A stretch of 64,000 nt of DNA, taken from assembly GCF_949628215.1 (NCBI RefSeq), contig NC_134281.1, positions 14,146,501 to 14,210,500 of the forward strand, given 5' to 3'. A program made the position numbers and the translations under genes. The notes beneath the pieces are model-generated. The model searched no databases, was not told where the DNA came from, and was given only the letters and a program-made list of their open reading frames with translations. Of this stretch, positions 14,501 through 17,500 are shown one piece after another. Source of the stretch: Phalacrocorax aristotelis. Lineage: Eukaryota; Chordata; Aves; Suliformes; Phalacrocoracidae. The first letter of the stretch is position 1. Every line of letters starts with the position of its first letter.

Positions 14501-17500
14501 CAGTGTTAGAGCAGCAATGCCAATTTTCTGCTCTCCAAATCTCATTGAAACGTGCCTGTGAATAGCTAAGAGACTTAGGCACCATAAATCACAAAGGTCC
14601 AAGAAATATATTTATTATTCTTAGCATTTTACGCATTATTTGTGGAGTAGAGTGTATTAGAAATTTCAAAACAGCAAGCATGACTGGCAAGGCTTGCCTA
14701 TAGAAACTCTCTAAAGCTTTTAGAGTCAGGAAACAGATACACAAAGTTTCCTTATCTTTAACGTACAGATATCCGGATAGGAAACTACTACCAGGAGCTT
14801 AGAAAGGACATTTTTTTTAAATCACTCAAATGAAAATACAAAGTATAGGTGACTCCATGGAAAAATAATAGGATATTTTTTTAAAATAGTAGGGGATTGT
14901 CTGGGGAGGGAACCAATATTAATATTGCCAGAGACTATAAGAGTGAAAATTACTTCATGGCTTTTATACAAATAATTATTAAGTAGGGAGCAGTAGCTTT
15001 GACTCATCTGATTTGTTTTGCTTTTTGGACTTGGAAATTTTTTTTAGTACACAGTGGAGGACATTCATGCTCATAACTCTTTCGCTCCCACTATGTGCCC
15101 AAACCATCCCAAGAGGCCAAATAAACGAGGAATTAAATTAAAAGCTGTCATCCGAGGATAAACGGGGAGACGGATACACGATATCCCGCATGTATTGTGA
15201 GCAGCGGGGTGGCTCGACAGAGGCGCTCGGCGGGCTGCAGTGGCGCAGTGGTCTGTGCCGGGGCTGGGGGTGGCGGGGAGAAGGGGGGGGGATCTGCCCC
15301 AAGGCACGGCAGTGACCTCGCAGTGACTGACCCCCACGTACAGTACAGCTCAGCTCCGTGCAGGGGCTGAGCAGAGATGAGACATGTTCGACCCGTGCCT
15401 GCGTGTGGTCCCTTTGCCTAATTTATCCCCAAACCCAGAAGAAACAGAGACACCTACCAGCCTTCGTTTAGGTTTAATGAGAGGTCGGTTTTGACCATTC
15501 ATTTTGTGGTAGAGCCCGCAGGCGTTACACAGGTAATGCCCGGTGCCGTCTCTTCTCCAGAGAGGGGTGGCAGTTGCTCCACAGTTCACACACTCTCTGC
15601 CTTCTAAATGGAAACACGAAGAAACCGGATTTCTTTCTTTAAAAACAAATTCACAAAAGCTTTTTGCATTGTCCTTTAGGCGTTTTCCAGAAGTCAAAAC
15701 AGTGTGTTAATTCAAGCACAATCAGACAGCAGTGACATCTACAGCACATGCAGCAAGGAGCTAAGTGTTTCGAGAATGCCCAGACTCCAGCAAGTGTTTT
15801 ATGTCATGATCAAAAATAGGCAGCTCTCTCTGCAAGGTGAGAAAGAGTGACACTCTTATTGTGTCAGATGGAAGTTATCGTTTCAGTAACGAGAACTCCC
15901 TTAATCTGCGCTGGGCACCGCTCCCCTCCCGTATCCATTGCACTCCGATGGTTAGAGGCTGTGTTCTCCTGCCACAGCCCCACACATAGACGTGTACACA
16001 AACACACACACCTGCAAACACACAACACGTTAAAGAGGGAGTCGAAGGAAGAGGTTTTCTAGAATTACATCTGAGCGAAAAGACCTCCCGTTCTGTGCTT
16101 GCTTTTTTGTTGCAAATACTACAGGATAAGAAAGTAAAACCGAGCAGACTGGGAATGGATGCAGCGTGCCAAAGGCTCGGTTATGATTTTTGTTCTAAAG
16201 GCAGAAAAACACTGCTATTGCTGGTCTTTGAGAAAGTTCAGTTTCAGCGAGCACTCTGGAAATTACTGTAAAAGACAGGCTTTTGGTTCTTTTCCATTTC
16301 TGTGATTTTTCAACAGTGCAGTTTGGATTTCGTAGGGAGCAGTTTACCTTATTACTGCTTCATTATTAGTTTTAGTAGGACAGCGTGGGAAACACGGCAT
16401 TGTAGAATGGCTCTATTAAATCCCAGCATGTAGCTCCTAGATATCTGATTCTGCCTCAGAAACCTCGCCGCTAAAAGTTCATTTGCCTCTGATGGTTCGA
16501 GGGCAGGTCTGCTTAATATAGAATCTCTCTTAATATAGTTTATGCAAATCCTACAGTATTTAACCGGAGAGGAAATTCTTTTTGCTAATAACTGAAGCAG
16601 GCCATGTTGAGTTCAGCGGGGCTTGTGTCTCCTTTAATCTAGGGAGTGGGTGGCTTTTAAACAACACAGCCTACAGTGAAAAATGAGGGGAGCTCTGCGG
16701 CGCTGCATTTGTAGCTTTTGTCCCTCCTAGGGCAGGAAGCTGCCGGAGTCGTCCTGTCGTGAGTCTTAGTTTTCCTACAAAAACACTCAGTGGTCACGAA
16801 CTTTCCCCAGTTCCTTGCACAGGGGGCTCCCTTACAGAAAAAAAAAAAAAGTAAAACAAAACAAAACAAAGTTCCTTACTTCCCCCATCTAATAAAACCA
16901 TCGGCAACAACGGGAGAAAAATCAAAAAGCTACTCGAGATCCCTTCATTTTCACAGAACCGAGTCTTGGATCCGTTTCCACCCTAGAAGGCTCGGACTGC
17001 TAATTGCCTTTACTTACAGCTCTCTCTGCACTACTAAAACATGCATATACATAGCAGCCACTGCATTTAAATAATGGCAGAGGGCGAGTGTGTTTTTTCC
17101 CCTCAGAGGAGCCGTTCAAACCAGAGCCGATGAGCTTGTAAAACAGCTGATACTTTTGTTGCAAAACTCGTAAGAGAGATCACATTTCTAAATTATTGTC
17201 TACTTTAAAAATAAATGCTTGTGGTGTGTTGGTAAGCATAGATGTGCAACGATAGTCAAGAATACACACACAAAAGCACACATAGCCATGTACATTTAAA
17301 AGGCGATCTAAACTCAGCCCCAATATACCGTATTTCCGTGGCTGAGGATGTTGAGGCAGGAAGGTTAGCAGAATTGCACAAATTGTCTTAATTCGTCTCT
17401 CTAGCTGTACAACTACTGTGATTTCAAAGCGGGATCAAAACTTCGTCCATCACCTAATTTGCCGATTTAGGAGTGCACTTTTAGGAGGAAATGCAGGGAA

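Follow-up and report, generated by a model that had tools for sequence, protein, structure and literature searches.

In the genome of Phalacrocorax aristotelis, the intron that separates the N-finger and C-finger exons of a GATA2-type gene harbors a composite site, very probably orthologous to the +9.5 enhancer of mammals. No E-box stands at the mammalian place in this assembly: TATCTG occupies the position, 8 bp ahead of an intact AGATAA, and the CTG half-site is retained. The site is plausibly a variant of an already known GATA2 enhancer that lacks the full E-box.

Genomic context

The window, that is, the whole 64-kb stretch of DNA analysed here (G000:C6:14146501-14210500; assembly of 1.279 Gb in 352 contigs), encodes the gene on its minus strand. 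In keeping with a bird genome, the assembly gave 150 matches to the beta-keratin family PF02422, with 150 of 257 candidates scored, and many of them form regular tandem arrays. The N-finger exon (146 nt, 15458..15603, minus strand) ends in KPKRRL at the donor CTG/GTAGGT, and the C-finger exon spans 126 nt (12378..12503, minus strand). Both were placed by their translations and splice motifs, with AG in front and GT behind, and Pfam recognizes a GATA finger in each (E 6.6e-17 and 2.1e-17, respectively). Three further GATA2 segments matched no Pfam family, and an Rfam search of the window returned no matches. We take the gene to be GATA2 rather than GATA3 on the basis of residues regarded as distinctive, namely ATATPLWRR in the N-finger, TCCANC in the C-finger and an N-terminal stretch of 11 residues (letters not shown). 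The donor and acceptor delimit an intron of 2,954 nt (12504..15457, minus strand), whose first base is 15457. The composite site sits in this intron, the location that characterizes +9.5 orthologues. The human counterpart begins at c.1017+1 and is called intron 4, or intron 5 in another numbering (PMC9291163).

Layout of the composite core

The reverse complement of 14731-14790, which is the transcript direction, reads TAGTAGTTTCCTATCCGGATATCTGTACGTTAAAGATAAGGAAACTTTGTGTATCTGTTT. Within it, TATCTG (14766..14771, minus strand, intron +687) stands at the E-box place and is followed, after an 8-bp spacer (14765-14758), by the WGATAA site AGATAA (14752..14757, minus strand, intron +701), which GGAAAC adjoins directly; the pair spans intron +687 to +706. 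The preliminary description had reported this order of motifs about 0.69 kb into the intron, and its letters, coordinates and distance, counted from base 15457, are all confirmed. An ETS-type core, TTTCCT (AGGAAA on the other strand; 14728..14733, minus strand), lies 18 bp past AGATAA and closes a 44-bp core with an E-box/spacer/GATA/spacer/ETS layout (14728..14771, minus strand, intron +687 to +730).

The core is also rich in GATA-like sequence. Beyond AGATAA, four further GATA cores are present within about 25 bp, rather than only the two extra cores first recorded: GGATAG (14780-14775), GGATAT (14774-14769), AGATAT (14772-14767), which overlaps TATCTG on the other strand, and AGATAC (14740-14735, plus strand), which lies between AGATAA and the ETS-type site. 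Two of the four overlap, forming GATATC. The CCGGAT ETS-type core of the preliminary description is likewise present, inside a 10-bp palindrome, TATCCGGATA (14770..14779, both strands), which carries CCGGAT and GATA cores on each strand.

Two symmetries accompany these motifs. The palindrome (14779-14770) extends over the initial TA of TATCTG. A perfect 8-bp inverted repeat, AGTTTCCT / AGGAAACT (14745-14752 and 14779-14786, 26 nt between the arms), flanks TATCTG-N8-AGATAA and overlaps the final A of AGATAA, with ETS-type cores placed symmetrically around the composite.

Probable orthology to the mammalian enhancer

We take the mammalian +9.5 core to read CATCTG-N8-AGATAA, as the preliminary description also had it. 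These letters were not found in print in the part of the literature on the enhancer that was covered, and the available portions of PMC10291195, PMC7793295 and PMC8664000 contain nothing on the enhancer letters. Published geometry provides a second line of comparison. The human element measures 44 bp and has two spacers (PMC10613526), so that, with 6-bp motifs and a first spacer assumed to be 8 bp, the second spacer is 18 bp. In human, the counterpart intron is the site of two regulatory variants, c.1017+513_540del and c.1017+572C>T; the latter is recurrent and falls at a CpG (PMC9291163). The 28-bp deletion is labelled ‘del ETS site’ in a table of PMC9291163, whereas PMC5663362 describes removal of the E-box; the latter account is followed here.

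These elements were combined into a layout template, CATCTG-N8-AGATAA-N18-NTTCCN, with 16 specified bases and the c.1017+572 CpG read as TTCC followed by G. The best match in the intron lies at +687 with one of the 16 bases mismatched, the runners-up having 5 mismatches in the intron and 4 in the 64 kb; the template was drafted with the bird sequence already known, and the match is thus a fit of published geometry and not a blind prediction. In 3 Mb of Markov sequence, no match occurs at 0 or 1 mismatch and two occur at 2 mismatches. AGATAA and an ETS core therefore stand at the published spacing, as derived from PMC9291163, PMC10613526 and the assumed first spacer.

The ETS-type core at this spacing, TTTCCT, occupies the inferred place of human c.1017+572. 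Concerning ETS input, the preliminary description had pointed to GGAAAC and CCGGAT, which stand as additional cores, but it had missed TTTCCT at the disease position, which lies partly outside 14731-14790. At 14729 on the transcript strand stands the C that matches the base altered in patients; TTCC is followed by T (14728-14729), so the human CpG is absent. Elsewhere in the window, 30456-30581 is a 126-bp near-perfect TTCCTT tandem array (21.2 copies, 99% matches), which strings TTCC cores together upstream of the coding exons of GATA2, at higher plus-strand coordinates.

Similarity probably extends beyond the core. The mouse +9.5 ChIP primers, forward and reverse, were compared in an assumed form whose letters were not found in the searched literature. 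The reverse primer matches a block about 90 bp beyond the core, CTAATACACTCTACTCCACAAATAATG (14634..14660, minus strand, intron +798), at 23 of 27 positions, correctly ordered and oriented; the runner-up in the 64 kb reaches 17/27, and 19 is the highest score in 60 Markov sequences of 64 kb, each read on one strand. The forward primer covers both E-box and spacer and matches the core at only 15 of 23 positions, a chance level, because just one of the eight spacer bases agrees with the assumed mouse sequence. Two motif scans of viral collections and one of prokaryote genomes gave no matches; these collections are non-vertebrate and have no bearing on conservation.

Overall, the segment resembles mouse +9.5 and human +9.9 in its gene, its intron, AGATAA, an ETS-type core 18 bp on and a flank identical at 23 of 27 positions to the assumed mouse primer. 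Its distance from the donor is also similar, +687 as compared with about +530 in human, a figure derived from c.1017+513_540del and +572. It differs in having TATCTG for CATCTG, in its spacer letters and in a TTTCCT lacking the human CpG. Place and layout, with the flank as a less certain third line, make orthology very likely, and the earlier claim that this is the same element is upheld as very probable, with the letters of the mammalian motif and of the primer assumed. No other segment of the intron fits the core with an intact CATCTG in either the pattern or the template search; such a segment had been named beforehand as telling against the proposal. In the account that we favor as probable overall, the enhancer core covers 14728-14779 and the enhancer as a whole reaches the block at 14634-14660 or beyond.

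Rarity of the motif pair and genome-wide grammar

[C/T]ATCTG-N8-AGATAA occurs once in the 64 kb, counting both strands, and is absent from 3 Mb of simulated sequence (one strand, first-order Markov model of the intron). On both strands of the bird's own 1.28-Gb genome there are 478 places with CATCTG-N8-AGATAA and 388 with TATCTG-N8-AGATAA, which corresponds to about 0.002 occurrences expected in an intron of equal length. The longer form TATCTG-N8-AGATAAGGAAA occurs once in the 1.28-Gb genome, at the GATA2 intron, and the CATCTG version of N8-AGATAAGGAAA does not occur in it.

Spacing controls in the same genome reveal an excess of the E-box form, with 478 CATCTG-N8-AGATAA places against 335 for an N16 control (1.43x, p 6e-7), and a slight excess of the TATCTG form, with 388 against 333 (1.17x, p 0.04). 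Part of the former may be repeat-derived. The spacer comes within 2 mismatches of TAAAATGG at 14 of 100 listed CATCTG-N8 places, where 0.7 would be expected, which suggests an interspersed repeat carrying the E-box, 8 bp and AGATAA; the TAAAATGG repeat may resemble the mammalian MIR element. When the repeat share is extrapolated to all CATCTG-N8 places, the ratio drops to 1.23. Since such cleaning was applied to neither the N16 list nor the TATCTG list, the counts are unfit to decide which of C and T is favored as the first base. Reversed-pattern controls (25 and 57 for CATCTG-N8; 77 and 69 for TATCTG-N8) differ in word content and were not relied on.

The E-box position

The only mismatch to the layout is the first base of the E-box. 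Where the canonical arrangement has CANNTG 8 bp before WGATAR, TATCTG is found, and the nearest CANNTG is CATTTG (14827-14832), which begins 75 bp upstream of AGATAA. Neither CATCTG-N7-9-AGATAA nor CANNTG-N6-10-WGATAR is present in the window on either strand, and 2.2 of the latter would be expected. An intact CATCTG does occur at 15005-15010 (plus strand), with no GATA partner 4-14 bp away. Compared with the presumed mouse GACATCTG, the bird GATATCTG contains GATATC, in which a GATA core can be read on either strand, as GGATAT and as AGATAT; neither of these is a full WGATAR.

The retained part of the site conforms to a described class. CTG-N8-AGATAA fits the TG/CTG-N7-8-WGATAA half E-box motif as defined in PMC4702602, and it resembles the TAL1-GATA1 compound motif of that study in its CTG, its 8 bp and its AGATAA; in contrast, TA at E-box positions 1-2 lies outside the predominant MA/BG classes (PMC4702602). 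A similar GATA2-driven composite grammar is found in Samd14 and other +9.5-like enhancers, although these belong to different genes and are described as E-box-GATA elements (PMC7242717).

Proposed mode of action

By analogy with mammalian and fish work, from which factor occupancy and activity are extrapolated, the segment most likely acts, as in other vertebrates, as a GATA2-autoregulated enhancer in endothelium and blood progenitors; taken as a whole, we consider this explanation probable. GATA2 would bind AGATAA, and an ETS factor of the FLI1/ERG/ETS1 type would bind TTTCCT, perhaps assisted by GGAAAC and CCGGAT. A complex of TAL1, E-protein, LMO2 and LDB1 would be held chiefly via GATA, with the E-protein contacting the CTG half-site 8 bp upstream. 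The extra overlapping GATA cores in GATATC may raise GATA occupancy. Direct TAL1 contact should weaken because the TAL1-side half reads TAT here, as compared with CAT in mammals.

In zebrafish and mouse, the intron-4 enhancer is active in endothelium, and animals that lose it form blood poorly (PMC7018942, PMC10952167). In mouse lymphatic cells it is occupied by Tal1, Gata2 and Ets1/2, and the 28-bp deletion variant is not induced by oscillatory shear stress (PMC5663362). Partial E-boxes are common at such places: in mouse erythroid cells, some 4,000 sites are common to TAL1 and GATA1, and about three quarters of these carry a partial E-box that precedes WGATAA by 7 or 8 bp; full E-box matches, the commonest single class, are nevertheless a minority (PMC4702602). 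The model of that study places E2A on the partial E-box and detects no sequence specificity of TAL1; the half E-box-GATA motif is also named in PMC6734249 and PMC8217497. GATA sites outweigh E-boxes in guiding TAL1, and more than one fifth of TAL1 sites in human proerythroblasts have no E-boxes (PMC4248312). When the GATA site, the E-box or both were mutated in a human +9.9 reporter, the authors emphasized the GATA site (PMC4556642).

Since partial E-boxes are common and GATA factors guide TAL1, CTG-N8-AGATAA should still be able to hold a TAL1 complex, and we regard tolerance of the half-site as moderately supported. Several points argue against easy tolerance. TA lies outside the predominant classes, the 28-bp deletion abolishes shear induction, and for the mouse and zebrafish intron-4 enhancer the TAL1 motif is tabulated in a review as confirmed by in vivo mutation (PMC10952167). 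The earlier suggestion that birds run this enhancer mainly through GATA and ETS inputs is one of two live models and is judged the less likely, given that the CTG half-site is kept at 8 bp and that GATA factors largely guide TAL1. A search by title and abstract opening returned no avian study of the enhancer.

Alternative explanations and direction of change

The alternatives of an ancestral state, a rewiring and a private base concern different questions and are not mutually exclusive. TATCTG, or another non-E-box, could be the ancestral amniote state, with CATCTG arising in the mammalian line and no loss in birds. Zebrafish and mammals differ in where the E-box lies with respect to GATA, so a mammalian-line gain is possible and turnover in either line has room; against this, zebrafish reportedly retains a spacer of about 9 bp, a hint that the E-box-GATA pair is old (PMC7018942). 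The bird segment resembles the zebrafish gata2a i4 enhancer in its intron, in its GATA and ETS motifs and in having no E-box at the mammalian place, but differs in that the zebrafish E-box is reported to lie about 9 bp from a GATA site, whereas the nearest CANNTG here is about 70 bp from AGATAA (PMC7018942). We regard an ancestral non-E-box as possible, if on the doubtful side.

A rewiring from E-box to GATA would have a single base turn the presumed mouse GACATCTG into GATATCTG, with docking of TAL1/E-protein lost and clustered GATA and ETS sites driving the enhancer. The remoteness of the nearest CANNTG, which starts 75 bp off, and the presence of five GATA cores and several ETS-type cores within 60 bp speak in its favor. 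However, the new cores GGATAT and AGATAT are not WGATAR, CTG is kept, and TAL1 is often found at GATA sites without a full E-box (PMC4702602, PMC4248312), which makes the rewiring unlikely in our estimation. Its broadest form, in which one base replaced the +9.5 E-box by a double GATA core (GATATC) in birds, leaving the endothelial-to-blood switch without direct TAL1 docking across the lineage, is more doubtful still, and to speak of ‘birds’ at all is an extrapolation from one genome.

The base could also be private to the species or individual, or an assembly error, with most birds having CATCTG. The observation comes from one sequence in one genome, which leaves some room for this; on the other side, the assembly is contiguous (352 contigs) and the remaining layout is intact, and we consider a private or erroneous base improbable, to about the same degree as the rewiring.

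Takeover by a different E-box-GATA pair is very unlikely. The candidate is CACTTG-N11-TGATAA (14362-14384, plus strand), the sole E-box/WGATAR pair in the intron with a 4-14 bp spacer in either order and on either strand, yet it lies on the opposite strand and leaves the layout unmatched, and the four E-box-then-GATA pairs in the 64 kb compare with 4.8 expected from base composition, so that the candidate is compatible with chance. That the motif pair arose by chance and is no +9.5 orthologue is hardly credible: GATA-like hexamers are common and the spacer is identical to the presumed mouse spacer at one base in eight, but about 0.002 such pairs are expected per intron, and both layout and flank match.

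Significance

The +9.5 E-box is deleted in some human patients with GATA2 deficiency (c.1017+512del28), which makes it a disease site, and it also serves as a model for TAL1-GATA composites. A living amniote without the full E-box would be a natural experiment on whether the GATA site, the half-site at 8 bp or the ETS site is essential. Such a case bears on how variants of uncertain effect in the human E-box should be judged, and on whether TAL1 still requires a half-site of its own once GATA2 is in place. Should the base turn out to be private to a single species, the case would have little value; if the lineage-wide reading is true, it would constitute a natural rewiring of a disease enhancer.
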